A DNA stretch of 64,000 bases, from positions 1 to 64,000 of the forward strand of contig MEOF01000043.1 in assembly GCA_001769505.1 (NCBI GenBank), given 5' to 3'. A program made the position numbers and the translations under genes. The DNA comes from Bacteroidetes bacterium GWF2_33_38 (GTDB lineage Bacteria > Bacteroidota > Bacteroidia > Bacteroidales > GWF2-33-38). Position 1 is the first letter of the stretch; the number at the start of each line of letters is the position of its first letter. Shown piece by piece: positions 179 through 30,489 of this stretch. Under the pieces are notes generated by a model, which was not told where the DNA came from, searched no databases, and saw nothing but the letters and a program-made list of their open reading frames with translations.

Positions 179-2623
179 TTACATTTCATCACCACCCATA
201 TCATCGCGATTTTGATCACGTTTTTGTTGTTGTTTGTAATTATTTATTTTGTAGCTCAAACTAAAGATAATGCTTGGGTATTTGCTCTTAAAATCGTCAT
301 ACAATTTAAAACCTTCGCCATACGAATAAGAACTATGTCTTCCTGTGTTGAAAATATCTCGCATATTTACAGTTAAAGCTAATTTTCGATTAAAAAAATC
401 TTGCTTAACTGCCATACCAATCGCATATGAAGAATATTCTTCTTCGTATGCTTCAATTGTAGGAGCTCTGTATGAACCATTTATCTGAATTCTAGTATTG
501 GATTTTATTTTTAAAGTAGATGACATGCGAGTATCCCAAGTAAAAGTAGATTGAGATATATCGTTATCATATAATTCGCCCTCGATACTATAATGAAAAA
601 CATTTAAAGAAGCATTAATTGTCCACCATTTTTTGATATCATTATTGTACATAAGTTCAGAACCAATTGCCAAATCGCGGCTAATGTTTTCAAAGGTCGT
701 CATCATTACATTATTGTCTCCTAATCTTGAAATTCTGTCAATTAAATTGTTTGTTTGACGACGGTAGGTTTCGAGAGAAATAAATGATTTATCGAATTTT
801 GCTTGTAAATTTATCTCATACGAATCAGTAAATTCGGGCAATAAATCGGGATTTCCTTGACGAGCATTGTATTTGTCCATGTAATTGATAAATGGATCTA
901 GATAATATTCTTGTGGTCGATTAATTCTGCGACTATAACTTGCTTGAGCTTGCAAAATTTTATTTATGGGTTTAGAAATATGAACCGAAGGGAAATAATC
1001 CATTCTATCAACAATATATTCAACCCCTGCAGCATCGGTAATATTTCGATATGTGTACTCTCCTCTAAAACCAAGCAAAAATTCAAAGCCCTTGAACTGG
1101 TTTGAAAAAGTTGTATACGCCGACTGTATTAATTGGTCGAAATCAATACTGTTACGAAGCGAATCATTTTCTTGCCAATCGTCGAGAATATAGTTGAAAT
1201 CAGAATTTATATAATCGGTTGCTTGATAATAATCCCTAATTTGATATCCAGCTTCAAATTTTCCTTTTTCGCCGATGGGTCTTGTATAATCTATTTTCAT
1301 ATCAAGGTCGTTAGAAGCGGAATTTTCTAAGGATTGATTCATGTATGATTCTACTCCCAAATCGTTCCAATAACTATCGGTTTCGGTTTCTACTAAAATA
1401 CCATCGTTATCACCATTTTTATTTGAATAAAATCCGGTAATTAAAAACTCGTGCCCCTTACGTTCAAATTGGTGCATATAGGTTGATGTTACTGAGTAAT
1501 ATTTTCGTGTAACATCAAAATCGCTATTTGAAGTATAGTAATTATTTATACTTACAGGCTCGGTATAATCGTGCGTATTTGAATAGGCAAATCGTTTAAA
1601 CCCGCCTTGTCCGATTTCACCTGAAAGCGAAAATGAATTACTTTTATTGATATTGTAATCAAAACCAAGCTTTCCGTTTAATCTATCGTGCCCACCACCT
1701 CGTTCCACCTCTTTTGAAATATAAAAAATTTCGTCGTCTAAAGACGATTCTCGTCGTGAAGTTCCACTTCCACGCCTACTGCTGTTATCGTATCCAGCTC
1801 CGGCAAAAAAATTAAATTTTCCCGAACGATAGTTAAATAAAGCATCAATTCCATAGTTGTTAAAAGTTCCGACTTTTCCGTTTACAATTCCGCTAAATCC
1901 TTTTTCTTTTTGCTTTTTTAACACAACATTGATAATTCCTGCGACTCCATCTGGCTCATATTTAGCCGAAGGATTTGTAATTATTTCGATGTTATCGATT
2001 GACGAAGCTGGGATTTGTTGCAAAATTTCATCGCTTTCCAATACACTAGGTTTTCCATCGACCAAGACCTTAAAATTTGAACTTCCACGTAAAGAAACAT
2101 TCCCATCTATATCTGTCTGAATCGAAGGTGTATTTTCCAGCACATCAACAGCAGAACCTCCCGCAGCAATTATATCTTGACCAACATTGATAACTTTTTT
2201 GTCGATTTTATATTCAACATATTTTTTGTCTGCAACAATTTCGACTTCTTTAATAGCTTGAATGTTTTTTTCGATTTTAATCGTTCCAAGATTTACATCT
2301 TTCTGAGGCGGTTTTATAAAAATTTCTTCGATAAATTTTTTCTTGTAACCAATAAAAGAAATCTCGGCATAAAATCGACCATAAGGTAGTTTTTCCATCA
2401 AAAAAGTTCCTTTCACATCGGCAATAGTTCCACTAACCATGGTCGAATCTTTTTTCTTGTAAAGTACAATATTTGCATATTCAACAGGAGTATCGGTATC
2501 GATGTCGTAAATTATTCCTGACAAACTTGCATCCATTGGCATTTGTCCCTCGTAACCTCCAGGTCGCTGTGCATTTGATAAGATTGAAGTAATCAGTAAA
2601 AAAGAAAATAAAATATATTTCAT
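179..2623 (-). CDS. TonB-dependent receptor-like outer-membrane beta-barrel protein
   Basis: An outer-membrane receptor-type barrel of 814 residues. A signal peptide (about 1-18, ending SILSNA) is followed by a carboxypeptidase-regulatory-like beta-sandwich (about 33-115), a plug-like domain (about 150-240, with LRGSSNFKVLVDGKPS) and a long strand-rich region to the C-terminus. The order matches the Bacteroidota 'outer membrane beta-barrel family' of TonB receptors, which import large or scarce ligands using energy from TonB. The extreme C-terminus is odd: it ends in a polar tail rich in Q, R, D and M instead of an aromatic residue. No SusD-like partner is adjacent, so I do not call it SusC, and the ligand cannot be told. 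It is a single gene, divergent from the next. Confidence 0.85.
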   Translation of the reverse strand: MKYILFSFLLITSILSNAQRPGGYEGQMPMDASLSGIIYDIDTDTPVEYANIVLYKKKDSTMVSGTIADVKGTFLMEKLPYGRFYAEISFIGYKKKFIEEIFIKPPQKDVNLGTIKIEKNIQAIKEVEIVADKKYVEYKIDKKVINVGQDIIAAGGSAVDVLENTPSIQTDIDGNVSLRGSSNFKVLVDGKPSVLESDEILQQIPASSIDNIEIITNPSAKYEPDGVAGIINVVLKKQKEKGFSGIVNGKVGTFNNYGIDALFNYRSGKFNFFAGAGYDNSSRRGSGTSRRESSLDDEIFYISKEVERGGGHDRLNGKLGFDYNINKSNSFSLSGEIGQGGFKRFAYSNTHDYTEPVSINNYYTSNSDFDVTRKYYSVTSTYMHQFERKGHEFLITGFYSNKNGDNDGILVETETDSYWNDLGVESYMNQSLENSASNDLDMKIDYTRPIGEKGKFEAGYQIRDYYQATDYINSDFNYILDDWQENDSLRNSIDFDQLIQSAYTTFSNQFKGFEFLLGFRGEYTYRNITDAAGVEYIVDRMDYFPSVHISKPINKILQAQASYSRRINRPQEYYLDPFINYMDKYNARQGNPDLLPEFTDSYEINLQAKFDKSFISLETYRRQTNNLIDRISRLGDNNVMMTTFENISRDLAIGSELMYNNDIKKWWTINASLNVFHYSIEGELYDNDISQSTFTWDTRMSSTLKIKSNTRIQINGSYRAPTIEAYEEEYSSYAIGMAVKQDFFNRKLALTVNMRDIFNTGRHSSYSYGEGFKLYDDFKSKYPSIIFSLSYKINNYKQQQKRDQNRDDMGGDEM

Positions 2624-2736
2624 TTAAATGAGATTTTTATAAAATAAAGCCCTTTGACTAAATCAAAACGCAAAGGTTTAAAAACAAAACGTAAAATAAA
2701 TAAATAATTTTGTGGGTTTTATTGTAATTTTGATGT

Positions 2737-3339
2737 ATGAAAAGATTTGTAATCATAATTTTTGTCGCAGCTTGGTCGCAATTATTATTTGCCCAACAGT
2801 TTAAAGGAGGATTGACCGGAGGATTAATCGTAAGCCAAGTCGATGGTGACAATTGGGGCGGATACAACAAACCAGGCGTTAATTTTGGAGGTTTTGTTTA
2901 CGTTATGTTTAAGAAGAATGTTGGTTTTGGAACCGAATTAAAATACATTCAAAAAGGAAGTTTCAAAGCTCCTAACTACGAAAAAGGTGATTATACTTAT
3001 TACAAAATGAGACTTTCGTACATCGAAATGCCTTTTTTGGCAAAATATGTATTGAATGAAAAACTAAATTTCGATGCAGGCTTGGGAATTTCATATTTGT
3101 TTAAAGCAACCGAAGATAAAGACGGAAATGGCGGTATAGAAGCCGCCCCTCCATTTTTTAAATACGAAATTCCGTTTATTTGCAGCGTTCACTACCAAAT
3201 GTCGGAAAAAGTTGAAGTTTTTTTGCGATTTTCTTACTCAGTGTTGCCCATAAGAAACCATCCGGGTGATCATACTTATTTTCTTGACAGAGGACAATGC
3301 AACAAACTTTTGAATTTATCATTTAATTACACGTTTTAA
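2737..3339 (+). CDS. Small outer-membrane beta-barrel protein (porin/OmpW-like fold)
   Basis: A protein of 200 residues with a signal peptide (about 1-20, ending WSQLLFAQ) and alternating aromatic/polar stretches typical of an eight-stranded barrel. It starts after the signal with the QFKGGLTGGLIVSQVDGD pattern seen in Bacteroidota 'porin family / outer membrane beta-barrel' proteins and ends in a final strand with a C-terminal phenylalanine (LSFNYTF), as expected for BAM-folded barrels. No catalytic residues are visible; the role is structural or unknown. TAATTTTG at 2705-2712 fits a Bacteroidota -7 box. The next gene starts 3 bp after its stop, so the two are probably co-transcribed. Confidence 0.75.
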   Translation: MKRFVIIIFVAAWSQLLFAQQFKGGLTGGLIVSQVDGDNWGGYNKPGVNFGGFVYVMFKKNVGFGTELKYIQKGSFKAPNYEKGDYTYYKMRLSYIEMPFLAKYVLNEKLNFDAGLGISYLFKATEDKDGNGGIEAAPPFFKYEIPFICSVHYQMSEKVEVFLRFSYSVLPIRNHPGDHTYFLDRGQCNKLLNLSFNYTF

Positions 3340-3341
3340 TT

Positions 3342-3914
3342 TTGAAAAATAAGAAAAAAATAATTGTCGGAATTACTGGTGCTAGCGGAGCAATTTATGC
3401 CGATTTATTGCTAAAAAAAATGTTTACCCTTTCGGAACAAATCGAAAAGGTGGGAATCGTTTTTTCGACAAATGCCAAAGATATCTGGCAAGAAGAATTG
3501 GGCGAAAATTATCCGAAAAGCGATTTGTTTATCGAGTACAGTGACAAAGATTTTTATGCTCCTTTTGCCTCCGGCTCTTCGAAATTCGACGCCATGATAA
3601 TTTGTCCTTGCTCGATGGGAACACTTGGACGAATTGCAAGTGGAGTTTCTGATGGTTTAATTACCCGAGCTGCTGATGTTATGCTTAAAGAACGTCGAAA
3701 ACTGATTCTTGTAACACGCGAAACCCCGTTGAGTTTAATTCACATCAACAACATGAAACTGGTAACCGAAGCAGGCGGAATTATTTGTCCAGCAAATCCT
3801 TCGTTTTACAGCAAACCAACTACTATTGATGAATTGGCATCGACCGTCGTAAATAGAATTATCGATTTAATTGGTTTGGAAAACAAGGCTTTTCGCTGGC
3901 AAGAAAAAGCCTAG
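3342..3914 (+). CDS. ubiX: UbiX family flavin prenyltransferase
   Basis: UbiX joins dimethylallyl phosphate to FMN to make the prenylated flavin cofactor of UbiD-type decarboxylases. The 190-residue length is normal for the family. The N-terminal Rossmann-like motif VGITGASGAIYADLLL (about 8-23) binds FMN, and the block CPCSMGTLGRIASG followed by LVTRETPLSLIHINNM is the family signature. The start is a TTG three bases after the stop of the previous gene; no in-frame ATG precedes the FMN motif. No ubiD is in the window, so the partner decarboxylase must be elsewhere. Its stop codon overlaps that of the convergent ferredoxin gene in a CTAG palindrome at 3911-3914. Confidence 0.92.
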   Translation: MKNKKKIIVGITGASGAIYADLLLKKMFTLSEQIEKVGIVFSTNAKDIWQEELGENYPKSDLFIEYSDKDFYAPFASGSSKFDAMIICPCSMGTLGRIASGVSDGLITRAADVMLKERRKLILVTRETPLSLIHINNMKLVTEAGGIICPANPSFYSKPTTIDELASTVVNRIIDLIGLENKAFRWQEKA

Positions 3915-4099
3915 CAACCCGAGCATTGAAATGCAGGACATGTACGTACACATTTTCCGCACTTTGTGCATTTTTCATTATCGATTTTAGGAGCTGAATA
4001 TGGCGAATCTTGAATGATTGCTCCCGAAGGGCAAACCGATAATGTTGGACAATGATGACTCTTCGGACAATAGTTTTCGTTTACAAAAAATTCTTTCAT
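3911..4099 (-). CDS. Small 4Fe-4S ferredoxin-like protein
   Basis: A cytoplasmic iron-sulfur protein of 62 residues. One canonical cluster motif, CTKCGKCVRTCP, lies at about 44-55. The N-terminal half has the looser pattern C-x5-C-x5-CP (about 11-24), and the protein ends with CSGC, giving ten cysteines in all. This resembles the short Bacteroidota ferredoxins that hold one or two [4Fe-4S] clusters and act as electron carriers; the partner is unknown. It converges on ubiX with overlapping stop codons. The irregular first motif means the second cluster is uncertain. Confidence 0.8.
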   Translation of the reverse strand: MKEFFVNENYCPKSHHCPTLSVCPSGAIIQDSPYSAPKIDNEKCTKCGKCVRTCPAFQCSGC

Positions 4100-4359
4100 G
4101 TGTTGTATTAAATTAATTTTTCACAAAAGTAATTATAATATTTATTTATTGCAATATATAGATATGTACTTGGGCGAAATAAAAAACCGAAAAGGTTCTT
4201 ACTATAAAAAATTAAATAAGCCCATTCTCCAACAAACATCTGTGCTCAGAAAACATTTACAATTTTCAAGTATTTGAGTTTCCCATCAGAATAATTATCG
4301 AAAGGTTTGAAAAATTTATCAAACTGTTGTATCTTAGCCTTATAATTTACAAGTATTAA

Positions 4360-5454
4360 ATGCCTACACTCAAACAAAAATTTCGCTGGTATTTATATCC
4401 ATTTTCTATCATTTACGGCACTATTGTTTCGTTTCGAAATTTTTTGTTTAACGCAAATATTTTAAAAACAGAAGAATTTGATATTCCTGTTATTTCAGTT
4501 GGAAATATTACTGTTGGAGGAACCGGAAAAACTCCGCACACCGAATATTTGATAAAATTGTTGAGCGAAAAGCTCAATGTTGCTGTATTAAGTCGAGGGT
4601 ATAAACGTAAAAGTAAAGGCTTTGTATTCGCATCACCGCAATCAACTATTTTTGATATTGGCGATGAACCTAAACAAATAAAACAAAATTTTAAAGATGT
4701 TGATGTTGCAGTGTGCGAAAGCCGCGTAAAAGGCATTAATCGCCTTTCGAACGACGAAAACAGAAAAAATCTGAATGTCATTTTGTTAGACGATGCATAC
4801 CAACACCGATATGTAAAACCTGGCTTATCGATATTGTTGATTGATTATTATCGTCCGATAAACGAAGACCATTTGCTTCCTTATGGCTCGCTCCGCGAAA
4901 ATCAACACGAAAAATCGCGAGCAAATATTATTATCGTCAGCAAAACGCCTAAAAATATTAAGCCCATTGAGCGAAGAATAATCGAAAAAAACTTAGCCCT
5001 TTTTCCATATCAATCTTTGTATTTTACAAGTCTTAATTACGGCGAATTAAAATCGGTTTTCGAATCTTCACAATTGGTTGATTTAAACGATAATTATCAC
5101 ATTCTTTTGGTTACCGGTATTGCAAATCCACTTCCCTTGAAAAATCATCTCGCAGAATATTCAAAAAATATTTTTCATCTCCAATACAGAGATCATCATG
5201 CGTTTTCGCCTGCTGATTTTGAAAAGATTCAATCCACATTCAACGAAATTAAATCGGATAAAAAAATAATTATTACCACCCAAAAAGACGGTATGCGAAT
5301 TCAAGATTTAAAAGGACATGAAAATTTAAAATCTCTTCCAATATTTTACATCCCGATAGAAATTGAATTTTTAAATCAAGACAAAATCACATTTAATAAT
5401 CAAATAATCGACTATATTACTAAAAATAAACGAGTTAATAAGTCGATTTCGTAA
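4360..5454 (+). CDS. lpxK: Tetraacyldisaccharide 4'-kinase
   Basis: LpxK phosphorylates the 4' position of the tetraacyldisaccharide to make lipid IVA, the sixth step of lipid A synthesis, at the inner face of the cytoplasmic membrane. The protein has 364 residues, normal for the family. An N-terminal hydrophobic segment (about 10-30) anchors it, and the P-loop GNITVGGTGKTPHTEYL (about 49-65) is unmistakable. LLDDAYQHRYV (about 141-151) corresponds to the conserved D-D-x-x-Q-H block. The next gene begins 12 bp after its stop, suggesting co-transcription. The 260 bp upstream hold no gene that I can support. Confidence 0.93.
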   Translation: MPTLKQKFRWYLYPFSIIYGTIVSFRNFLFNANILKTEEFDIPVISVGNITVGGTGKTPHTEYLIKLLSEKLNVAVLSRGYKRKSKGFVFASPQSTIFDIGDEPKQIKQNFKDVDVAVCESRVKGINRLSNDENRKNLNVILLDDAYQHRYVKPGLSILLIDYYRPINEDHLLPYGSLRENQHEKSRANIIIVSKTPKNIKPIERRIIEKNLALFPYQSLYFTSLNYGELKSVFESSQLVDLNDNYHILLVTGIANPLPLKNHLAEYSKNIFHLQYRDHHAFSPADFEKIQSTFNEIKSDKKIIITTQKDGMRIQDLKGHENLKSLPIFYIPIEIEFLNQDKITFNNQIIDYITKNKRVNKSIS

Positions 5455-5466
5455 ACCGTAAAAAAT

Positions 5467-6402
5467 ATGATAAAATTTATTTTAACAGCCATTGCAATTG
5501 TTTCGATTGGTAATATAGTTTCAGCACAAGGAGCCGGAAATTGGTATAAAAATCAAGCTCAAGAAAGCGTAGCCAACAATCGTTTGAGCAATTCGTACGA
5601 CGAGTATTATCAATCAGCGAATCAATCGATTAATTATATTACATCGACATCTAACGATACAGTTATTGAGTTAACAACAAAAGTAATGATGAATGTAAAA
5701 TCGGATACTTACATTGTCATACTTGGAATTACTCAAATTGGTGATTCTATCGAAACCTGCCACCAACTGATAAACGCTCGCATTAATAAATTTATCAAAA
5801 AATTGGAAAAGTTGAACATCAAAAAAGAAGATATTTATATTGACTTTATTTCGCAAGTTCCTGTTTTTGAATACGAAGTGGAGAAAAAACTATTCAGCAA
5901 GTCGTACAATGAAATCCCAAAAGGCTTTGAACTGAAAAAAAATGTTCACATAAAATACACTGACAATAAAATTGCCGAACAACTTTTAATTGAAGCCGCA
6001 AAAAGTGAGATTTACGACATCATAAAAGTCGATTATATTATCGACAATGTTGATGCTGTTTACGATACATTGCGACAAGTGTCGATAAATATTATGAATA
6101 AAAAGGTACAAGAATTTAAAAAACTTGGTATTCAGTTTACATCAATGTATCAAACCGTTTCGGAAAATATCAACAGCACTTTTCCTATTGAGCGTTATTC
6201 GGGTTATACCGAGTTTAATAAGGCATCGTTTGGAGCCATGAGTAAAAGTTCTTCGGTAGCAACTATTTCCGATTCAAAAAGTTTGTACTACAACAAACTC
6301 TCGTACAATAGTTTCGACCAAATTATTAACCCTACTGTAGTTGAGCCTTCGGTTCAATTTTCGTACACGATTAAAACTAGGTTTGTGTTGAAGAAATTAT
6401 AG
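5467..6402 (+). CDS. Periplasmic SIMPL (DUF541)-domain protein
   Basis: A 311-residue exported protein. A signal peptide (about 1-20, ending GNIVSAQ) is followed by a SIMPL-like core (about 60-235): the pattern DTVIELTTKVMMNVKSDTYIVILGI, the long helix TCHQLINARINKFIKKL and the strand IYIDFISQVPVFEYE match the family, whose members are periplasmic or outer-membrane proteins of ill-defined role. A serine-rich segment (about 255-280) precedes a final strand ending in FVLKKL. The gene follows lpxK by 12 bp, so a link to envelope biogenesis is possible but is only inference from position. The domain call is by pattern, not by profile search. Confidence 0.6.
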   Translation: MIKFILTAIAIVSIGNIVSAQGAGNWYKNQAQESVANNRLSNSYDEYYQSANQSINYITSTSNDTVIELTTKVMMNVKSDTYIVILGITQIGDSIETCHQLINARINKFIKKLEKLNIKKEDIYIDFISQVPVFEYEVEKKLFSKSYNEIPKGFELKKNVHIKYTDNKIAEQLLIEAAKSEIYDIIKVDYIIDNVDAVYDTLRQVSINIMNKKVQEFKKLGIQFTSMYQTVSENINSTFPIERYSGYTEFNKASFGAMSKSSSVATISDSKSLYYNKLSYNSFDQIINPTVVEPSVQFSYTIKTRFVLKKL

Positions 6403-6433
6403 TTTAAATTGCTACAAATCAAGCAAAAACTAA

Positions 6434-7675
6434 CTATTTTTTAGATTTCTTCTTTTTTTTGTATTGCGAGCTTGTTTCGTCTTCTTCAATCAGCGATTTC
6501 CAATCGGTTTCGTCTTCCTCTTTGGCATAGACTAGGGTTTCGTTGTATTCCGATTTCGAAATTTCCATAACATTGATTTTTTTGGTAACAAAACCTTCAA
6601 TTTCCTCTAACATCGGTTTTTCTTCCTCGCTGCAAAAAGAAATAGCGATTCCTTTTTCGGTTCCTCTACCTGTTCGACCAACTCGGTGGACATAGTTTTC
6701 GGCTTTATCGGGCAAATCGTAATTTATGATGTACTGAACTTTTGCAACGTCGATTCCACGAGCACTTACATCGGTTGCAATCAGAATTTTCACAATCCCT
6801 TCTTTGAATTGTTTCATAATGCTGGTTCTATCTTTTTGTTCTTTGTCGCCATGGATAGTAAAACATACTATTCCGACACGCTCCATTGCTTTTTGCACTC
6901 TTTCGGCACGAACTTTTGTGCGGACAAAAATAAGAATTTTTGTATCGGGATTTTCTTTAATAATTCGTTCTAAAAAAAATCGTTTATCGTCCATTTCGAT
7001 AAAAGCAACAGAGTGCGTTACATTTTTTGAAACTGGATCTTTTGGCGAAATTTGAATACGAATTGGGTTTTCAACTAAAGAATAGGCTAGTTTTTTGATA
7101 TTTTCGTTTATGGTTGCCGAAAAAAATAATGTTTGGTGCTTGCGAGGAATATGTCGAATCACGTCGCGAATATCGTTAATAAAACCCAAGTCTAGCATAT
7201 GGTCAGCTTCGTCGAGAATTAAAATTTCGACGGTGTTTAAATGAATATATTTCTGACTTACCAAGTCAAACATTCTTCCGGGTGTGGCAACCAAAATATC
7301 AATTCCTTTTTCGAGTTGAGCAATCTGTGAATCTTGTTCAACTCCTCCGTGAACACAAAAAGTATTAACTCTGGTGTGTTTACACAACTCGGAAAAAACT
7401 TCGGTAATTTGCAAAGCAAGTTCCCGAGTCGGAGCCATTACAATACATTTTATTCCCTCAGTTCTTTTACTCGATTTGCTATCGTGCAAAATATTAATAA
7501 CCGGAATCGCAAATGCTGCGGTTTTCCCTGTTCCGGTTTGGGCAATTGCTAAAACATCTTCGCCCTTTAATATTGGAGGAATTGCTTTGTATTGTATATC
7601 TGTTGGGCGGTTGAAATTTAAGTTTTCGAGATTCCACTTAATTTCAGGAGCTATATTGTAGTCAGTAAATTTCAT
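6434..7675 (-). CDS. DEAD-box ATP-dependent RNA helicase (RhlE-like)
   Basis: A 413-residue RNA helicase that uses ATP to unwind short RNA duplexes, typically in ribosome assembly or RNA decay. All motifs are visible: the Q motif (NFNRPTDIQYKAIPPIL, about 18-34), motif I AQTGTGKT (about 45-52), PTRELALQ, TPGR, motif II DEAD (about 155), SAT, and HRVGRTGRG in the second RecA domain. The short basic tail ending KYKKKKKSKK is the usual RNA-binding extension of RhlE-type proteins. It is separated from its neighbours by ordinary gaps and appears to be transcribed alone. Subfamily assignment below DEAD-box is less certain. Confidence 0.95.
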   Translation of the reverse strand: MKFTDYNIAPEIKWNLENLNFNRPTDIQYKAIPPILKGEDVLAIAQTGTGKTAAFAIPVINILHDSKSSKRTEGIKCIVMAPTRELALQITEVFSELCKHTRVNTFCVHGGVEQDSQIAQLEKGIDILVATPGRMFDLVSQKYIHLNTVEILILDEADHMLDLGFINDIRDVIRHIPRKHQTLFFSATINENIKKLAYSLVENPIRIQISPKDPVSKNVTHSVAFIEMDDKRFFLERIIKENPDTKILIFVRTKVRAERVQKAMERVGIVCFTIHGDKEQKDRTSIMKQFKEGIVKILIATDVSARGIDVAKVQYIINYDLPDKAENYVHRVGRTGRGTEKGIAISFCSEEEKPMLEEIEGFVTKKINVMEISKSEYNETLVYAKEEDETDWKSLIEEDETSSQYKKKKKSKK

Positions 7676-20633: not shown

Positions 20634-21524
20634 ATGTTAAAACGCACACTTTTTTTCAGTAATCCATGTTACTTATCTTCGAAAAATAACCAAATGTTAA
20701 TCACCAATAAAGATACTGGTGAAATAAAACAAGTTCCCGTTGAAGACATTGGATTTGTGATTCTTGAAAATTATCAAATAACTTTCACAACAAATTTAAT
20801 CCAATTATTATCAGAGAATAACGTTGCTGTTGTTTTTTGTAATTCAAAATTTCATCCAACTGCGATGTTGCTGAATTTAGAAAATAATCATTTGCAAAAC
20901 GAAATGTTTAGCAATCAAATAAAAGCCACAGAACCGCTGAAAAAACAATTATGGAAACAAACCATAGTTGCAAAAATCGGCAATCAAGCCAATGTTTTGA
21001 AAATTTTAGGAAAACAATATTTGAATTTGCTTGAATACGCTAAAAATGTTCAAAGTGGCGATTCTACCAATCGAGAAGCTCAAGCCGCTCGATTTTATTG
21101 GAGCGAACTTTTTGGTAAAGATTTTTTGCGAGAAAGAATTGGACATCCGCCAAATAATGCGTTGAATTATGGTTATGCAATTCTCAGAGCTGCGGTTGCT
21201 CGTGCGTTAGTTGGCTCTGGTTTGTTGCCAACGTTGGGGATTCATCATCACAACAAATACAATGCTTTTTGTTTAGCCGACGATATTATGGAACCTTACC
21301 GCCCTTATGTTGATTTGTTGGTCTATAATCTAAATCAAAATCACAAAATTGAATCTGATTTAACAACCGAACTTAAATTAGAAATTCTAAAAATTTTAAC
21401 TTTTGATGTTGAGTTTGAAAACACAAAACGTCCGCTAATGTTAGGTTTATCGCAAACAACAGCATCATTATCGAAATGTTTTGCGGGTGAAATTAAAAAA
21501 CTTTCTTTTCCCGAAATCATTTAA
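20634..21524 (+). CDS. cas1: CRISPR-associated endonuclease Cas1 (type II)
   Basis: Cas1 is the integrase that, with Cas2, inserts new spacers into the array. The 296-residue length and the N-terminal MLKRTLFFSNPCYLSSKNNQ are typical of subtype II-C. The metal-binding residues are visible: E148 in NREAQAARFYW, the histidine in LGIHHHNKYNAF (204-206) and E220 in DDIMEPYRPYVD. Cas1 and Cas2 are on the + strand, opposite to cas9, and 153 bp of AT-rich filler separate cas1 from cas2 although these usually overlap or nearly abut. No csn2 or cas4 is present, which supports II-C. Confidence 0.97.
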   Translation: MLKRTLFFSNPCYLSSKNNQMLITNKDTGEIKQVPVEDIGFVILENYQITFTTNLIQLLSENNVAVVFCNSKFHPTAMLLNLENNHLQNEMFSNQIKATEPLKKQLWKQTIVAKIGNQANVLKILGKQYLNLLEYAKNVQSGDSTNREAQAARFYWSELFGKDFLRERIGHPPNNALNYGYAILRAAVARALVGSGLLPTLGIHHHNKYNAFCLADDIMEPYRPYVDLLVYNLNQNHKIESDLTTELKLEILKILTFDVEFENTKRPLMLGLSQTTASLSKCFAGEIKKLSFPEII

Positions 21525-21677: not shown

Positions 21678-22013
21678 ATGCAAACACGTTTAAATGCTTA
21701 CAGAATTATGTGGTTATTTGTATTTTTCGATTTGCCGACAAACACTAAATTGGAACGCAAAAAAGCTTCTAAGTTTAGAAAATTTTTATTGGACGATGGT
21801 TTTACAATGATGCAATATTCGGTTTATATTCGACATTGTGCCAGTAGCGAAAGTGCCGATGTTCACCAAAAACGAATTGAAAATAACATTACGAATAAAG
21901 GACAAATTAGCATTTTGCGAATAACCGATAAACAATATGGTAACATTGCCAATTTTTGGGGCAAAACCACAACTCCACTTGAAACGGCTCCGCAACAATT
22001 GGAACTTTTTTGA
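21678..22013 (+). CDS. cas2: CRISPR-associated protein Cas2
   Basis: Cas2 is the structural partner of Cas1 in the integration complex. The 111-residue product has the ferredoxin-like pattern MWLFVFFDLPTNTKLERKKA with the conserved aspartate in FFDLP (about 15-19), then FRKFLLDDGFTMMQYSVYIRHC. The C-terminal PQQLELF tail is common in type II Cas2. It is followed by 207 bp of the same repetitive filler found before it, then by a convergent toxin-antitoxin pair. Confidence 0.95.
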   Translation: MQTRLNAYRIMWLFVFFDLPTNTKLERKKASKFRKFLLDDGFTMMQYSVYIRHCASSESADVHQKRIENNITNKGQISILRITDKQYGNIANFWGKTTTPLETAPQQLELF

Positions 22014-22220: not shown

Positions 22221-22508
22221 TTAAAGAATATTCTTTAAATCTTGTTTTCCCACAATAAACATTATTTCAACAAATTCATTATTGATTTTGAAATAAATTG
22301 TATCAGAACCACATACGCACCTTCTGTATCCTTCTTTCAAATAATCAACTGCTTCAAAAGCGTAAGGTTGCTTAGCAATGATTTCAAAACATTCGAAAAA
22401 TGAATTAAAAAACTTATCGGCTTGTGTTGTTCCAAATTTTTCAACTCCAAAATGGTGTATTCTGATTAAATCGTCTTTTGCCTCATTACTTAATCTAAAT
22501 TTCGCCAT
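22221..22508 (-). CDS. parE: ParE/RelE-superfamily toxin
   Basis: A 95-residue toxin of the ParE/RelE fold: RLSNEAKDDLIRIHHFGVEKFG at the start, a central helix pair and the C-terminal strands YRRCVCGSDTIYFKINNEFVEIMFIVGKQDL. ParE proteins poison DNA gyrase, while RelE proteins cut mRNA; the sequence alone favours ParE because its antitoxin is ParD-like. The gene overlaps the antitoxin gene by 14 bp (22495-22508), the usual coupled arrangement. It sits between cas2 and the CRISPR array. Confidence 0.88.
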   Translation of the reverse strand: MAKFRLSNEAKDDLIRIHHFGVEKFGTTQADKFFNSFFECFEIIAKQPYAFEAVDYLKEGYRRCVCGSDTIYFKINNEFVEIMFIVGKQDLKNIL

Positions 22509-22740
22509 TAAGTAATTTTTTTGATTGTTTTAAAATTTGTTCTTTTGTGTCTTCGGTAAAGCCACTATTTTCGGCTTTTTCTAATTTTAATTTTAACCAA
22601 TCAATTTCAATTTGTTGTTTTCGGGCTTGTCTGATTAAATCGTTTACAAGCTCACTTTTGCTCGAATATTCGCGTGTGTTCATTTGAGCTTGAAGCCATT
22701 CATTATTTGGCTCTGTGAAAGAAATACTTTGCCTTATCAT
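22495..22740 (-). CDS. parD: ParD-like ribbon-helix-helix antitoxin
   Basis: An 81-residue antitoxin. The N-terminal strand and two helices, MIRQSISFTEPNNEWLQAQ then YSSKSELVNDLIRQAR, are the ribbon-helix-helix DNA-binding pattern of ParD/CopG proteins. The C-terminal half, rich in K and E, would wrap the ParE toxin. The gene precedes and overlaps the toxin gene. A 20-bp near-perfect palindrome lies 14-33 bp before the start codon and is the likely site at which the complex represses its own promoter. Confidence 0.88.
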   Translation of the reverse strand: MIRQSISFTEPNNEWLQAQMNTREYSSKSELVNDLIRQARKQQIEIDWLKLKLEKAENSGFTEDTKEQILKQSKKLLNGEI

Positions 22741-22753
22741 AATTATACTTTTT

Positions 22754-22773
22754 GTGGTGTAAATTTACATCAC
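22754..22773. promoter_or_regulatory. Palindromic operator of the parDE pair
   Basis: GTGGTGTAAATTTACATCAC is a 20-bp palindrome with one mismatched pair, centred 24 bp upstream of the parD ATG. Ribbon-helix-helix antitoxins bind short palindromes at this position to autoregulate, so this is the likely operator. Confidence 0.65.
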
Positions 22774-22932
22774 TTTTGCATCAAAAGCAAATAAGTTTAC
22801 AAACCACAACGGAAAAATGTCTGAACCATAGTTATTGAGTTAAAAGTTTATCAAGTTTTTAAAGTTCCTAAAGTTGAAATCAAAGGTCATCGAGCGGAGT
22901 CGAGATGCCGATGAATTTGTAGAGTAAAAAAT

Positions 22933-23241
22933 TTAAATTCCAGAAATTGTTCCTCCAGGGATAACTCTTCTTATAACAACAATATCATTGTGAATTGTAT
23001 AAATTATGGCAATTTTTTTATAGTTAACTCGTCTTGCATTATGACCATATTTTAAAATAGATTTACGAGTTGCAATTTGGTAAATGTGAGCTTTGTTGCT
23101 TAAGCTGTTAACTTCTTTACGAATGCCGTCAACATATTGTTTTGCAGTTATTGGAGATTTGCATACAATTTCAATAAAATCAAGAATATCTTTAATATCT
23201 GAACGTGCTGATTCAGAAAATATAATTGAAAATTTTTTCAT
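22933..23241 (-). CDS. Second RelE/ParE-superfamily toxin
   Basis: A 102-residue toxin-like protein: FSIIFSESARSDIKDILDFIE at the start, a central helix (PITAKQYVDGIRKEVNSL) and a C-terminal sheet with RRVNYKKIAIIYTIHNDIVVIRRVIPGG. The order fits the ParE/RelE fold. Its start overlaps the stop of the upstream gene by 4 bp (ATGA type), as in toxin-antitoxin operons. It is clearly different in sequence from the toxin at 22221-22508, so this is not a local duplication. Confidence 0.8.
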   Translation of the reverse strand: MKKFSIIFSESARSDIKDILDFIEIVCKSPITAKQYVDGIRKEVNSLSNKAHIYQIATRKSILKYGHNARRVNYKKIAIIYTIHNDIVVIRRVIPGGTISGI

Positions 23242-23505: not shown

Positions 23506-23516
23506 GTTTTGTTTTG

Positions 23517-23588
23517 AAACAAAAAAAACGGTAGAAGAACTCACAAATCTGCTCAACTACCGCTATTTTTTACAAAAATATTTACTCC
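23517..23588. repeat. 72-bp module, copy 1, left of the CRISPR array
   Basis: This copy shares 68 of 72 positions with 23862-23933. It contains an inverted pair CGGTAG...CTACCG followed by a T-rich run, so it could form a hairpin or act as a terminator. It has no ORF. Confidence 0.8.
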
Positions 23589-23861
23589 ATATTCTGTCAT
23601 GCCTGTGCAGACAGGCATCTTACATAATAATGATTCATAAATCAAATTATCCGAGTTTTATTGTTCTTTTTTCTACCGCAAAAAAGAACCAAAAACCCAC
23701 CACATAAGCCAACTTTCGCTTTTATTCTGAATTTCAATTTTTAATTTGTAGTTCTATTTCAGCTCAAGTTCACACCTTATGTGGACGCCAACCGCACGTA
23801 TTTCAAAAAATATATTTTATCAAATTACAACATTTCTAAACCGATGATTTCGCTAATTTTA
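23589..23861. other. Non-coding spacer between the two 72-bp modules
   Basis: No gene is supported. Two inverted repeats are visible: ATGCCTGT-GCAG-ACAGGCAT at 23599-23618 (8-bp perfect stem) and CCACATAAG (23700-23708) with CTTATGTGG (23776-23784). The segment lies between the second toxin-antitoxin pair and the array, where a leader could lie if spacers are added at the left end. Confidence 0.55.
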
Positions 23862-23933
23862 AAACAAAAAAAACGGTAGAAGAAATCACAAATCTGCTCA
23901 ACCACCGTTATTTTTTACAAAAATATTTACTCC
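23862..23933. repeat. 72-bp module, copy 2, adjacent to the CRISPR array
   Basis: The second copy of the module at 23517-23588, ending 35 bp before the first CRISPR repeat. Two of its four differences fall in the inverted pair (CGGTAG versus CCACCG), which weakens the stem by one pair. As the nearest conserved element to the array it is a leader candidate. Confidence 0.75.
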
Positions 23934-23968
23934 TTACAAATTGAATATTAGAAGATTACAAATCAACT

Positions 23969-25379
23969 AATATTTATGTTTCCATTTTTTAATCAAACCA
24001 CAACTAAGTCAGTATAGTATAAATTGTTTCTAAAAATATTTATGTTTCCATTTTTTAATCAAACCACAACTCATATTATCATTATGATTTAGAATAACAC
24101 AATATTTATGTTTCCATTTTTTAATCAAACCACAACAGGTGGTAAAGATAGTACAGCATTATTTCAAATATTTATGTTTCCATTTTTTAATCAAACCACA
24201 ACCGGTATCGGAATAACTGTTTAAAAATTCGTAAATATTTATGTTTCCATTTTTTAATCAAACCACAACTGCATTGATTGAGTTCGCTAACCAACTTGAA
24301 ATATTTATGTTTCCATTTTTTAATCAAACCACAACTCAAATTAATAACTTAAAATATAGAAAAAAAATATTTATGTTTCCATTTTTTAATCAAACCACAA
24401 CTACTTTGCCTTTTGCTGTGATGTAATGCTCAATATTTATGTTTCCATTTTTTAATCAAACCACAACCGAAGCACAACAATCACGTTTAAGTGCGGAAAT
24501 ATTTATGTTTCCATTTTTTAATCAAACCACAACTGAACTCCTTTAATTTGTTTACAAAATCAAATATTTATGTTTCCATTTTTTAATCAAACCACAACAC
24601 TAACATAAAAATAACTTACGATGAAAAAAATATTTATGTTTCCATTTTTTAATCAAACCACAACTAACCTTTGAGACTAAATTATCAAATTTTTAATATT
24701 TATGTTTCCATTTTTTAATCAAACCACAACCCTCTAAGGCTTCGAAATAATCGGTCAACGAATATTTATGTTTCCATTTTTTAATCAAACCACAACAACG
24801 CTGTCAGCCTCCAAAATACTTGTTTTAATATTTATGTTTCCATTTTTTAATCAAACCACAACTAGCATCTGGAACTTGGATTGACGTAACACAATATTTA
24901 TGTTTCCATTTTTTAATCAAACCACAACTACGAGTGCAGTTGAAGGACTTACTAATTTAATATTTATGTTTCCATTTTTTAATCAAACCACAACCGTATT
25001 GATTAATAACTATATCTAATAATTAATATTTATGTTTCCATTTTTTAATCAAACCACAACATCGCAACTAAAAGTGATTCTGATTGTATAATATTTATGT
25101 TTCCATTTTTTAATCAAACCACAACTAATGGGTGTTGTTTATATGATTCTTAAGAAATATTTATGTTTCCATTTTTTAATCAAACCACAACGGCTGTGTT
25201 ATTAGGCATGTTGACAAGTTAATATTTATGTTTCCATTTTTTAATCAAACCACAACAAATCACTCCAATTTATGGTGTTGGTGTTAATATTTATGTTTCC
25301 ATTTTTTAATCAAACCACAACAAACACTCCTAAATCAGATAAAAATAATGAAATATTTATGTTTCCATTTTTTAATCAA
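23969..25379 (-). CRISPR. Type II-C CRISPR array, 21 intact repeats plus one truncated, 21 spacers
   Basis: The 36-nt repeat, read on the - strand, begins GTTGTGGTTTGATTA and ends AAACATAAATATT; I saw no difference among the 21 intact copies. Repeats recur every 66 bp in most cases, with spacers of 29-31 nt. The first + strand repeat is 23969-24004 and the last intact one 25286-25321. The final unit, 25352-25379, keeps 28 bases and then diverges. The orientation is set by the GTTGTGG start and by complementarity to the tracrRNA anti-repeats at 30259-30271 and 30401-30430. Transcription is therefore from right to left. No spacer origin can be given without a search. Confidence 0.98.
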
Positions 25380-25434
25380 TTGTGGAGCGTAGCGTAACAA
25401 TCGCAAACACCATAAAAAACAAACAATACGTTTG

Positions 25435-25647: not shown

Positions 25648-28600
25648 TTATGAATTTAATTCAATAAATGCTTTAGAAAAATTTACATCAATTTTACCCA
25701 AAGCATCTATTTTTGCTGGTATAACTCTTAATGTTGAAGGGCTTCTTCTTAAAACAATTTCTGTCAAATCTGATAAGTTACTTTCACTTTTAATAGGGTT
25801 TGGTGTACCCGTAATTCCAAGAGCACAATTATGCCGTTTTAAAATAATTATCCCATTTTCATCAAATTGAACAAGCACAAATAATCTATTTTGTATATCA
25901 CTTTTGCAATTCCAATCAATTTCATCAAAGTGTTTATCAAAAACTAAAAACATATCATTTTGATGTAATTTTAATATTGGTTTGGAATCTTCTATACTAA
26001 AACGACCTTTAACGATGTTGTAGTGATTGATTAATTTATAATTTCTGTTTTTAAATTTTCCTGTTTCATCAGGAATTAAATCTCCAAAAATTCTTGCTTC
26101 ATAATTACTTCCGGGTTCTTTGGCAAAATAATAATTATGCTGCCAATCATACTCTGACTTATCTATTTTCCTATATTCTTTATAGGGCTTAATATTTGTA
26201 TCTGTTTTCCCTGATTTTAATCTTATATTTTTAATTACCATTCTTCCAATCTGTTTATTTTTCTTTTCATCGTAAAACTCTGGAAGAATTATAACGCCAT
26301 CGCTTTCTTTCAACAATATTTCCAAGCCTTTTGTTCGAGTAAGATTGGCCACTTCATTTGTGATTTTCTCATTGTAATTTACTCTTTTCTTTTCATCAAT
26401 ATCGTATCTAATTGTTGCATTAAACAACATTTCAATAAGTTCTTTAAAGTCGGAAAATTCAGTTGAAAAATTTTGTTTTGTAATATTATCTATCACTATT
26501 TCTTTTTTCTTATCATCTTTTTTAATTTTTTCATAAATTTTAAAAGCAATACCTTTTTTGTGTTCTATTTCCTTTTCTGCAGCAACTTCATTTTCTTTTA
26601 CAGTAAATTCCATTAATTTTTCCCAACCTTTAGTGTCAGCAAGATTTAATAATCTAATTTTTATTCCATCATCAATAATATCTTCAATGTCTCCACCACT
26701 TATTTTTGTAATTGGTTTTCGTTGTGCGAATATAAGCTTGTCATTCTTTTTAATGTGTGCATAAGGATTTTGGCTATTTAATTTACCTCTCAAATTTTGT
26801 TTTGTATTATTTCCTTTTTCAACTGCATCTAAAAATGGTTTAACTCTATCAATTTGTTTATGAAATATTAAAACTTCATTATGAAGATTGTGCATTCTAT
26901 TGGCAAAATCTTGCATTGGTTGTTTAATTTTGTATTTTGGATTATTATTTCCCTTGAAATAATCACTTTCGTAATTGTGAAAAGCTTCTGAAATCAAATT
27001 TGCAGTTCCTTTTTCAACGCAGGCAACAGTTACAGCATCAATGCAATGATGTATATGATTATCTCTATTTTTTATTTCATATTCTTTTTCTAAACCCCAC
27101 ATTTTACGCAATGTTTCTGTTATTTTACCATTAACTACGTTCACTTTTTTAAAATATGAATTTAAATAAGCTCTGGCGTATTTTGCAATTATTCTAGTAT
27201 CAACAAGATTGGCATTTGTAAATTGATTGGTTATTTCTACACATTCAAAATTTTTATATTTTTTGCTCAAATAATCTAACTTTATTTTTGTGTAATGTGC
27301 TTTTGTCATTACTTCATCGTGAGAAATTGGGTCTGTAATTGCTTTTGCTGCATTCTTATATTTTTTATATTCTTCTTTCAAACTCCAAAGACTAACATTC
27401 CATTGAATACTAACCTTTTGTAGTTGACTTGAAATTGAATATGATTTTAGATTTTTATCTCTATTTCTAATTATAGTTTCTATATTTATTAATTCTCCAT
27501 TATAGTTTGTATTTAAAAGACCTGGAAGAATATCTTTTTTAATTGTTCGGTTAAAATCAGCATTTGCAAGTGTTTTGTTCGATAATGAATTATCGTGATA
27601 TTTACTTCTTGGAATTGTATGTTCTATATCATAAGTTGTTTTACCATCAAGAAAATCGCAAATGGATATTGGTTTATAACTAGTATATAAACATTGATGA
27701 TTTTGCTCTTTCCACAAAATATATTTTATAATATCTGTATCCGTTGGATTTATCTCTTTTTGACATTCTTTAGGATAAGTATTAATAATTTCAGTTCGAG
27801 CCCATTCTCTAATAATTTCTTGTTCTTTTTGCCATAGAGCAATTGCTTTTCTATAACTTGCACTATTTATTTCGCCTGCAACTTCAACATTCACTTCTGT
27901 ATCTTTATCAACAATTCCTTTTTTAATTAACTCGTTACACAATCTTTTTATTTGATGCATTGACCTGTTAAAAACAGGGTTTTTTATTGAACTTATTTCG
28001 GGGTTTCCTAATTTTTTATCCACCTGTTTATAAACTTCCATTGCAGAAGGATGATATAATTTTGAAACATCAATTTTATCTTTTGGAAAAGCTTCTGTAA
28101 GTTTGTCAAGAATGAATTCGGGTATTGTTTTAGTTGAAATGTAAATTACTTCCTTTGAAGATTTCTCTAAAGAAACAAGCGAAAATTTATCCCAACAATT
28201 TTTAAAAAGTTGGTCTTTTTCTTCAGGTTTTAATTTGTTATATTCCGTTTCTCCAATCCATTCAATTATTTCTTTTTTTATTCCATTTTTATGTGCGTCA
28301 ATACTAATTTCATTGTTTCCAAGGCTTTCTTTATTTTCTTTTACTTTGCTTATGTAATTGTTTGCAATGCCAATGTTTTGTTTTTCAAGGTTATGAATAT
28401 TAATTGCTTCATTTATTTTTTCAGAAACTATTTTTTGTTCATTTTCAGACAATTTTCGGTTAAGCACTTCTGAAATATTCGCTAAAAATACTGCATTAGA
28501 ATATATTTCTCCTTTTTCGAGAAAAGGAACAATTTTTTTAAGAGCCGATTTACTCAAATTTCCATAACCTTTTACCAATTTAATTTTCTGAAAATCTTCA

Positions 28601-30216
28601 ATTCCTTTTTCATCAAGTTTAAGATGTTTTTCTGCAAATTCTTTTCTGATTGTATTTCTGTCTTTTTTTCCAAAATCATCTAAAAACAAACAATGCCAAA
28701 TATCTTCAACACTTATTTGTGTTTTGTTTTTTTCATCTTTGTATCCACTATTTAAAAACGGTATTTCATTGTATTTATCTTTACCCAATAGCTTTGATAA
28801 AGCAGAAATAGTAGGACAAGCAGAAAACTTTTTATCTAATGGAAAATTAAAAAATATGTTTGCAACGCCACCCTCAATAATATTTCCTTTATAAAAAACT
28901 TCTTGTGGTTTTTTAATATAGCAATACATTTCTTCACCGCTTAATTTATTTGCTATTTTAACAAAATCGAAATCTGTTTTTTGCAGAAATAATGGTTTAA
29001 TTAATTCTTTTTCTTCTTTCGTTAAAAAATCTAATTTTGTTTTTTCTCTACCTATTTTTATTCTATTTATACTTTCCCACATTCTAAATTCTTCAAAAAG
29101 TGGATGTGAAATAGCTATTCTTTTTCGTTTGGGTTCTAAAGGACACATTGCAACCATTCCTTTTTGGCTTTTTAGCGGTCTTTGATAAAAAATAGCGTGA
29201 TGAAGTTTTTCTTTTAAATCCTTTTCGATATTTTGCTTATCACAGATGTAATTAAACTCTGCTAAATAATGCTCGTTTCTATGCGTGTATCTTCCTCTTA
29301 ATTTAGTAATCAAACCTGTTTTTTTATCTGCTTTTGCATAAATTGAATAGAAAAAACTTCCCATTGTTGGAGCACATTCACCATTTTTCACAGCAATTTT
29401 AATATTATCGGAAAGCTCCCCAATAGATTTCATTACTTTGCCCAAGTTTTCGGGTTTATCAAATTCTGTAATTATAAAATCTTTGATTTTATCAAAATTA
29501 ATCTCAGTTTTCAGTAATTTAATAATTTTGTTTCCTAATGTATTTACAACTTTATCGCTTTTTCTATTATCTAATAAAACTTGAAACGGTTCTTTAAAAG
29601 AAGTATAATCATTTGTTTCTTCAAGCAATTTTCTAACTTCTGTTTTGAATAATTCTAATTTATCGTCTGATTGTTCTTCTTCTCCGTTTGAAAGATAACC
29701 TCTTCTTTGTGCTAAATGATAAAAAGCTCTGCCAAGTTGTAATTTCCCTTGTTCACTATTCATTAAACCATCTTTTGTTGCTGCTAAATGTCGCAAATAA
29801 TATGGTTGTTTTAATTTTTCGGTTTCTCTATTTCCATTCTTTTTCCCGGTTCTTTGCCAATCTATAAATTTTTCATTTTCGCAAGGATATATTTTTTTAT
29901 TTTTCCAATTTCCCAACTCATTTTCTTCAAATTTTGGGCATAATCCAAATTCATTAAGTACTTTTAGAGTAGCAATTTTTCTTAAAATTAATCTTTCTAA
30001 TCGTCTTCTTGCTCCTCTAAAACCTGTTCTTTCTGCTGCTTTTGAATTTTCATCGGCATTTACTCCTTTTGGAAAAATATAACTTCCTTTGGTTGGAATT
30101 AAATCTCCATTTTTATCTAATTTTTCAAGAAAATCATATTTTCCATCTTGTTTTTCAATTACAGCCCAACCAATACTGTTAGTTCCTAAATCGAGACCGA
30201 GTTTAATTTTTCTCAT
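25648..30216 (-). CDS. cas9: Type II-C CRISPR effector nuclease Cas9
   Basis: Cas9 cuts both strands of DNA matched by a crRNA-tracrRNA guide. The product has 1522 residues, at the long end for II-C and usual for Bacteroidota forms. RuvC-I is at the N-terminus (IKLGLDLGTNSIGWAV, D9), followed by an arginine-rich bridge helix (RGARRRLERLILRK). RuvC-II has E778 in VNVEVAGEI; the HNH domain has TTYDIEHTIPRS with D863 and H866 and the asparagine in ANADFNRTIK; RuvC-III has HHCIDAV with H1056-H1057 and D1060. All catalytic residues are intact. A promoter and two tracrRNA-like genes lie upstream. Unusually, cas9 is not joined to cas1-cas2. Confidence 0.98.
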   Translation of the reverse strand: MRKIKLGLDLGTNSIGWAVIEKQDGKYDFLEKLDKNGDLIPTKGSYIFPKGVNADENSKAAERTGFRGARRRLERLILRKIATLKVLNEFGLCPKFEENELGNWKNKKIYPCENEKFIDWQRTGKKNGNRETEKLKQPYYLRHLAATKDGLMNSEQGKLQLGRAFYHLAQRRGYLSNGEEEQSDDKLELFKTEVRKLLEETNDYTSFKEPFQVLLDNRKSDKVVNTLGNKIIKLLKTEINFDKIKDFIITEFDKPENLGKVMKSIGELSDNIKIAVKNGECAPTMGSFFYSIYAKADKKTGLITKLRGRYTHRNEHYLAEFNYICDKQNIEKDLKEKLHHAIFYQRPLKSQKGMVAMCPLEPKRKRIAISHPLFEEFRMWESINRIKIGREKTKLDFLTKEEKELIKPLFLQKTDFDFVKIANKLSGEEMYCYIKKPQEVFYKGNIIEGGVANIFFNFPLDKKFSACPTISALSKLLGKDKYNEIPFLNSGYKDEKNKTQISVEDIWHCLFLDDFGKKDRNTIRKEFAEKHLKLDEKGIEDFQKIKLVKGYGNLSKSALKKIVPFLEKGEIYSNAVFLANISEVLNRKLSENEQKIVSEKINEAINIHNLEKQNIGIANNYISKVKENKESLGNNEISIDAHKNGIKKEIIEWIGETEYNKLKPEEKDQLFKNCWDKFSLVSLEKSSKEVIYISTKTIPEFILDKLTEAFPKDKIDVSKLYHPSAMEVYKQVDKKLGNPEISSIKNPVFNRSMHQIKRLCNELIKKGIVDKDTEVNVEVAGEINSASYRKAIALWQKEQEIIREWARTEIINTYPKECQKEINPTDTDIIKYILWKEQNHQCLYTSYKPISICDFLDGKTTYDIEHTIPRSKYHDNSLSNKTLANADFNRTIKKDILPGLLNTNYNGELINIETIIRNRDKNLKSYSISSQLQKVSIQWNVSLWSLKEEYKKYKNAAKAITDPISHDEVMTKAHYTKIKLDYLSKKYKNFECVEITNQFTNANLVDTRIIAKYARAYLNSYFKKVNVVNGKITETLRKMWGLEKEYEIKNRDNHIHHCIDAVTVACVEKGTANLISEAFHNYESDYFKGNNNPKYKIKQPMQDFANRMHNLHNEVLIFHKQIDRVKPFLDAVEKGNNTKQNLRGKLNSQNPYAHIKKNDKLIFAQRKPITKISGGDIEDIIDDGIKIRLLNLADTKGWEKLMEFTVKENEVAAEKEIEHKKGIAFKIYEKIKKDDKKKEIVIDNITKQNFSTEFSDFKELIEMLFNATIRYDIDEKKRVNYNEKITNEVANLTRTKGLEILLKESDGVIILPEFYDEKKNKQIGRMVIKNIRLKSGKTDTNIKPYKEYRKIDKSEYDWQHNYYFAKEPGSNYEARIFGDLIPDETGKFKNRNYKLINHYNIVKGRFSIEDSKPILKLHQNDMFLVFDKHFDEIDWNCKSDIQNRLFVLVQFDENGIIILKRHNCALGITGTPNPIKSESNLSDLTEIVLRRSPSTLRVIPAKIDALGKIDVNFSKAFIELNS

Positions 30217-30233: not shown

Positions 30234-30265
30234 CAAAAATATTATTTACATTTGTCATAATCAAA
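30234..30265 (-). promoter_or_regulatory. cas9 promoter inside a degenerate CRISPR repeat
   Basis: On the - strand TTTG (30262-30265), 20 bases, then TATTTTTG (30234-30241) match the Bacteroidota TTTG/TAnnTTTG consensus exactly, 18 bp before the cas9 ATG. The TTTG lies in TTGTGATTTGATTA, a near-copy of the CRISPR repeat start TTGTGGTTTGATTA, so the promoter and the anti-repeat of the first tracrRNA overlap on opposite strands. Confidence 0.75.
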
Positions 30266-30360
30266 TCACAATAAGGCGAAGTCCAAAAGACAAAGCCGTA
30301 GAATGATCCGCAAGGTGACAAAATTTAGAGCCCTCAGTTTACTGGGGGTTCGTTGTTTTT
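30255..30360 (+). ncRNA. tracrRNA-like gene 1 (divergent, expanded nexus)
   Basis: The anti-repeat core AATCAAATCACAA (30259-30271) matches 12 of 13 bases of the repeat complement. It is followed by AAGGC, an expanded stem with GGC (30275-30277) and GCC (30295-30297) around an inner GTC/GAC hairpin, then CGTAG. A 10-bp terminal stem GAGCCCTCAG (30328-30337), loop TTTA, CTGGGGGTTC (30342-30351) is followed by GTTGTTTTT. A TACATTTG at 30247-30254 fits a -7 box just upstream. The layout parallels gene 2, but the scaffold differs. It may be a second functional tracrRNA, a regulator or a decaying copy. Confidence 0.65.
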
Positions 30361-30397
30361 ATTTACAAGTTCAATTTAGTCTTAAAAAATATAATAT

Positions 30398-30489
30398 CAA
30401 AATTATAATTCCATTTTAATCTTACCACAATAAGGCTATATGCCGTAGGTGAAAACCTTTAGTCCTGCTTCGGTGGGACTTTTTGTTTT
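30398..30489 (+). ncRNA. tracrRNA gene 2 (canonical II-C type)
   Basis: The anti-repeat at 30401-30430 contains TTCCATTTT, AATC and ACCACAA, pairing with most of the 36-nt repeat apart from a 2-nt gap and a 2-nt mismatch, as is normal for tracrRNA bulges. Then follow the nexus GGC-TATAT-GCC (30434-30444), a second stem AGGT-GAAA-ACCT (30447-30458) and a terminator AGTCCTGC-TTCG-GTGGGACT (30461-30480) with TTTTGTTTT. This is the usual Bacteroidota II-C scaffold. It would guide processing of the crRNA and activate Cas9. Confidence 0.9.

Follow-up and report, generated by a model that had tools for sequence, protein, structure and literature searches.

Which of two different tracrRNA genes serves the Cas9 of a type II-C CRISPR-Cas locus, and how did a single cas9 come to adjoin both of them? 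The question is raised by the window, i.e., the whole 64,000-nucleotide stretch of Bacteroidetes bacterium GWF2_33_38 that was analyzed, in which cas9, the type II cas1, cas2, and a CRISPR array are all present and two tandem tracrRNA-type genes on the + strand, designated unit 1 and unit 2, adjoin the one cas9 and have the array in common. The features of the locus are as follows.

20634 to 21524, + strand: cas1 (type II), matching TIGR03639.
21678 to 22013, + strand: cas2, matching TIGR01573.
23968 to 25388, - strand: CRISPR array with 36-nt repeats, crRNA sense GTTGTGGTTTGATTAAAAAATGGAAACATAAATATT.
25648 to 30216, - strand: cas9 (1522 aa), matching TIGR01865 and placed in the clade Cas9B by the Cas9 tree.
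30247 to 30254, + strand: predicted -7 promoter box of unit 1, TACATTTG, matching TAnnTTTG, with its function presumed from the Bacteroidetes consensus.
30259 to 30358, + strand: unit 1, a short tracrRNA and proposed cognate of Cas9B, based on conservation and compensatory pairs.
30259 to 30271, + strand: unit 1 anti-repeat AATCAAATCACAA, pairing unbroken with the first 13-14 nt of the repeat.
30275 to 30277 with 30295 to 30297, + strand: unit 1 nexus stem GGC/GCC with an inner GTC/GAC hairpin, from folding.
30328 to 30359, + strand: unit 1 terminal stem of 10 bp (30328-30337/30342-30351) and T-run, an intrinsic terminator.
About 30402 to 30486, + strand: unit 2, the canonical tracrRNA of the 36-nt-repeat Bacteroidetes II-C family, with the same RNA at 37 related loci.

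The RuvC and HNH residues are present in the window Cas9, with D9, H866, and D1060 invariant, and neither csn2 nor cas4 was recognized among the window's listed open reading frames, as judged from that list. An Rfam scan of 25-41 kb gave no match, and the tracrRNAs were located by motif and synteny after this null scan. The motif CACAATAAGGC occurs twice in the window (30267 and 30426, + strand) at an expectation of 0.06 copies, and none of 100 shuffles reached two. Both tandem + strand units that an earlier note on this DNA had described beside one Cas9 were found where it had placed them, with the anatomy correctly given. Between cas2 and the array, two toxin-antitoxin-like gene pairs were seen at 22221-23241, RelE/ParE-like by eye and each with a small partner, and the distal array end is adjoined by an 80-bp direct repeat (23512-23591 and 23857-23936, 94% identical) containing the hairpin CGGTAG...CTACCG. 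A second II-C cas9, distant from the first (about 26% identity, about 1302 aa), is present in the same genome (L095, G000:C20:99000-111129); its tracrRNA is of the Bacteroides type, and no matching repeats were seen in the 12 kb analyzed there.

Both units belong to a known kind of RNA, the II-C tracrRNA. Unit 2 possesses its family's anti-repeat, nexus, and terminator and is the tracrRNA of the Flavobacterium/Bacteroidetes II-C loci with 36-nt repeats, as in the FpCas9 loci of F. psychrophilum (PMC10309648, PMC12609912), sharing with it the anti-repeat, the AATAAGGC nexus, the terminal hairpin, and the position upstream of and divergent from cas9; the known loci, however, have one tracrRNA. 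With the repeat, unit 2 forms 7 bp, a UU/UU internal loop, and then a long upper stem (-22.4 kcal/mol), and the canonical tracrRNAs at related loci all have this UU. Unit 1 differs from the FpCas9-type RNA in its continuous pairing without the UU/UU loop, its short anti-repeat, its variable nexus, and its other terminator, and it has AA at the place of the unit 2 UU in all seven loci encoding a Cas9B. Its duplex with the repeat consists of 13-14 continuous bp including one G-U (-15.5 kcal/mol), so the match of 12 of 13 bases noted earlier was real but counted too low, the odd base being the G-U. Bacteroides-type II-C systems have 47-nt repeats. Their tracrRNA (AAGCAAATCACAATAAGGATTATTCCGTTGTG) has a continuous anti-repeat core nearly identical to that of unit 1, but its nexus and terminator are different and the Cas9s are distant (22-28% identity).

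TAnnTTTG is the Bacteroidetes -7 consensus, and such a box lies 4-5 nt upstream of the unit 1 anti-repeat in 7/7 Cas9B loci (4 nt in the window), so that the predicted 5' end of the unit 1 RNA coincides with the start of the anti-repeat at about 30259, for an expected RNA of about 90-100 nt beginning AAUCAAAUCAC. The unit had been delimited earlier as 30255-30360 and does lie there, but the predicted start is at about 30259, and what precedes 30255 is the -7 box and hence probably untranscribed. A closing stem UUUGUCA/UGACAAA obtained by folding 30240-30360 (z -5.0) was rejected, its 5' half being the promoter box and the stem being absent in relatives. About 40 bp separate the predicted start of unit 1 from the cas9 start codon, so that the divergent promoters overlap; no consistent cas9 promoter inside unit 1 was recognized by eye across the relatives. 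The box of unit 2 is perfect in 30/37 comparison loci versus 4/7 Cas9B loci, and the window, L002, and L003 lack it, the best match in the window (4/6) being at background level. In L076/L102 and L079, the -7 box stands about 15 nt before the tracrRNA core and the anti-repeat appears naturally short, resembling unit 1 but with the UU loop.

The distribution of the two units was analyzed in loci of related Cas9s, the genomes searched being 329 of the F. daejeonense genus, 177 of the L006 host's order, 385 of the class, and smaller sets. In every one of the seven Cas9B loci found, i.e., the window and L002-L007 (Lutibacter, Flavobacterium, Mariniflexile, and others, with F. daejeonense and Mariniflexile maritimum as culturable carriers; Cas9s of L002-L007 58-75% identical), unit 1 is adjacent to cas9B and unit 2 lies farther out. 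The unit 1 core TCAAATCACAATAAGG occurs in 0/39 comparison loci, the Cas9s of which are mostly 29-42% identical to that of the window; 37 of them have only a unit-2-type tracrRNA, and L071 and L081 are without a recognizable one. The rule that II-C loci normally have one tracrRNA, as stated in the earlier note, held for 36 of the 37 comparison loci with a recognizable tracrRNA, the exception being L060. This Cas9A locus (G810:C12, genus of F. daejeonense) has two tandem canonical unit-2 tracrRNAs upstream of cas9, a true tandem duplication whose copies differ in their nexus stems. In the Cas9 tree, the unit 1 bearers form one group (90/67), and their clade with L076 is supported at 100/100. 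L076, the closest outgroup (51-54% identity), has a unit-2-type tracrRNA only, so this Cas9 lineage can probably function without unit 1.

Further Cas9B searches gained only this outgroup, no close Cas9B was found on plasmids, unit 1 was absent from phage records, and no locus with unit 1 and without unit 2 occurred among those found. Plasmid matches to unit 1 were weak Borrelia matches and were rejected, and an 18-mer with one mismatch, AAGCAAATCACAATAAGG, present in many genomes of the window's order, belongs to canonical tracrRNAs of another Cas9 group. At the end of one viral contig (6.3 kb; L038:68-105, IMGVR_UViG_2920168565_000005), which has no cas9, stand an anti-repeat and nexus resembling those of a tracrRNA, AATCAAATCACAATAAGGATTATTCTGTTGTG; this may be a tracrRNA mimic carried by a phage, or the contig may be a piece of host DNA.

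The stems of unit 1 are conserved in pairing while their sequence changes, as had been proposed from the window alone: across the seven loci, 90/90 cells of the nexus and terminal stems are paired, with four compensatory pairs. The terminal stem keeps 69/69 pair cells with three compensatory pairs, and in the nexus both GGC/GCC and GGU/ACC occur. Because MAFFT misaligned the nexus, the count was made on a manual alignment that had been verified against the sequences. The nexus loop and the linker vary in sequence and length, and the anti-repeat and the terminator base are invariant apart from a change in L006, the unit 1 of which was read from L040/L111, representing the same locus. There, repeat GATG faces CATC in unit 1, and the other six loci have GATT and AATC, so that covariation of the anti-repeat with the repeat has one informative locus only. 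The earlier suggestion that unit 1 is a second guide scaffold gains sequence support from these compensatory changes and from the anti-repeat, nexus, terminator, and promoter present in 7/7 loci.

The origin of the pair is recorded in the relatives. In Lutibacter, the Cas9B locus L106 and the Cas9A locus L103 occupy the same site and are collinear, with 78% identity from the upstream flank across unit 2 to codon 17 of cas9A; the alignment resumes 35 nt past the cas9A stop at 85% identity, and the difference between the two is exactly unit 1 plus cas9B (positions 2478-7181). In L005, a shorter stretch of the L106 locus, the relic MTKILGLDLGTNSIGWA of the cas9A N terminus stands between the units with 17/17 residues matching. 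The relic between the units of L006 comprises about 52 codons (52-residue alignment) and is closer to Cas9A than to Cas9B, and the unit 2 flank of this locus resembles residents of the L079/L080 type. Noncoding DNA 3' of cas9B in L003, L004, and L007 matches that 3' of cas9A, and identity between Cas9B and the product of the resident cas9A is only 31-38%. No cas9A relic was found between the units of the window, where the cas9 replacement observed in relatives probably took place as well. Since the residents are of two kinds and their repeats differ, the exchange appears to have occurred at least twice; a single exchange followed by recombination would also explain this and is possible.

In view of this replacement pattern, unit 1 is most likely Cas9B's own tracrRNA. 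The preferred reading, with a probability of about 0.72, is that unit 1 is a genuine short tracrRNA of Cas9B that moves with cas9B as a cassette and that unit 2 is the retained tracrRNA of the displaced resident. The observations behind it are the presence of both units, their conservation, compensatory pairing, and repeat matching, and the in-place replacement with cas9A relics in relatives. The ancestral resident locus would have had the order tracrRNA unit 2, cas9A, array, and cas2/cas1. The incoming cas9B with unit 1 would have replaced the resident cas9A from its start to its stop codon and left the resident tracrRNA in place, giving a locus with two tracrRNAs predicted to pair with the same crRNAs. 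Unit 1 would be transcribed from its own promoter, pair with the crRNA, and load Cas9B as the main guide partner. The earlier note was right in calling unit 2 canonical, as its occurrence at 37 related loci attests, but it took unit 2 for the scaffold of this Cas9 and unit 1 for the extra; by comparison of the loci, the history was probably the reverse, unit 1 having come with cas9B and unit 2 being that of a displaced cas9.

In all Cas9B loci tested, the upper anti-repeat of unit 2 fits the repeat of its own locus best, with the own pairing ahead for 5/5 repeats, and unit 2 is thus not obviously a gene in decay; its less well preserved promoter box in the Cas9B loci points the other way. Unit 2 may persist because it still functions, perhaps in crRNA maturation, or because an inherited gene is lost only slowly. 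If it works, it would perhaps serve RNase III maturation of long crRNA precursors, for which the 13-bp duplex of unit 1 may be too short. A division of labor in which unit 2 drives this maturation and unit 1 loads Cas9B is compatible with the cassette origin and is put forward tentatively: both units are retained in 7/7 loci, the long duplex of unit 2 is retuned to each repeat while unit 1 covers only the first 13-14 nt, and unit 1 pairs only with the repeat part kept in the mature crRNA. Flavobacterium II-C arrays, however, are reportedly transcribed from repeat promoters (PMC10309648), so that RNase III may be dispensable, the unit 2 promoter box is missing in three of the loci (the window, L002, and L003), and L076 and L079 manage with one tracrRNA that has its box near a short anti-repeat. 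The stricter form, in which the two tracrRNAs are non-redundant, the inherited long one maturing crRNAs and the short loop-free one forming the effector complex, is rather doubtful; if true, each of the two genes would have taken over one of the two classical tasks of a tracrRNA.

Three other accounts of unit 1 were weighed against the cassette. An in-place tandem duplication of the tracrRNA and the cas9 5' end with subsequent divergence of unit 1 would produce the observed order of cas9 start, unit 1, cas9 5' relic, and unit 2, and L060 proves that tandem tracrRNA duplication exists, but the L006 relic is like Cas9A (DTGVRIF) and unlike Cas9B (TKGSYIFPKG), both flanks align to the cas9A locus, and Cas9B has only the 31-38% identity to the resident, which makes this account improbable. 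A regulatory role, with unit 1 as a cleavage-inactive RNA of the tracr-L or scaRNA kind that represses cas9 or sequesters crRNAs, was considered in view of the about 40 bp to the cas9 start codon, at which the divergent promoters must overlap, and of the missing internal loop, a feature of every comparison tracrRNA. It is quite improbable, since unit 1 pairs with the crRNA in the predicted duplex and travels with cas9; the 4 nt between the -7 box and the anti-repeat leave no room for a guide, and nothing in unit 1 resembles a repeat that could pair with a tracrRNA. In a scaRNA, part of the sequence resembles the repeat and pairs with tracrRNA. Unit 1 is like the F. novicida and N. meningitidis scaRNA (PMC13431127) in being an additional gene for a small RNA that is linked to a type II locus, but 30259-30358 on the + strand has anti-repeat polarity only and a tracrRNA scaffold, and the scaRNA-like option of the earlier note was dropped. 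In the II-A system of S. pyogenes, one Cas9 has two tracrRNA forms, tracr-L and tracr-S, of which tracr-L is a 5'-extended isoform of one gene and a natural single guide (PMC11417352); here, in contrast, there are two separate genes, and unit 1 lacks a guide extension. The candidate natural single guide was rejected, as the box is 4 nt from the anti-repeat and nothing repeat-like stands on the + strand, and with it fell the earlier idea of a long cas9-repressing form, the predicted start leaving no 5' guide extension. The overlapping promoters of unit 1 and cas9 could possibly influence each other without unit 1 being a dedicated regulator. A functionless decaying duplicate, also offered in the earlier note, would fit the variable nexus loop and linker, but it is contradicted by the conservation in 7/7 loci, with an invariant anti-repeat and terminator base, the promoter box in all of them, and the fully paired stem cells (90/90) with four compensatory changes, and it is extremely improbable.

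The cassette reading has a precedent in part. In F. psychrophilum, the foreign cas9 of Fp2Cas9 replaced the cas9 between the tracrRNA and the rest of the locus and the resident tracrRNA was kept, but no second tracrRNA was reported to have arrived with the new cas9 (PMC10309648). A literature search, thin on subscription journals, found no report of a clade-conserved pair of different tracrRNAs per Cas9 resulting from cas9-tracrRNA cassette exchange.

The locus would be a snapshot of a Cas9 swap without array loss, in which cas9 and its tracrRNA enter a resident CRISPR locus as one cassette and the resident tracrRNA stays. It offers a natural setting in which to ask what a Cas9 requires of its tracrRNA (internal loop, upper stem, or nexus) and whether maturation can be separated from the effector role. 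For users of new Cas9s it holds a warning, since the canonical-looking tracrRNA here might be the wrong guide scaffold.
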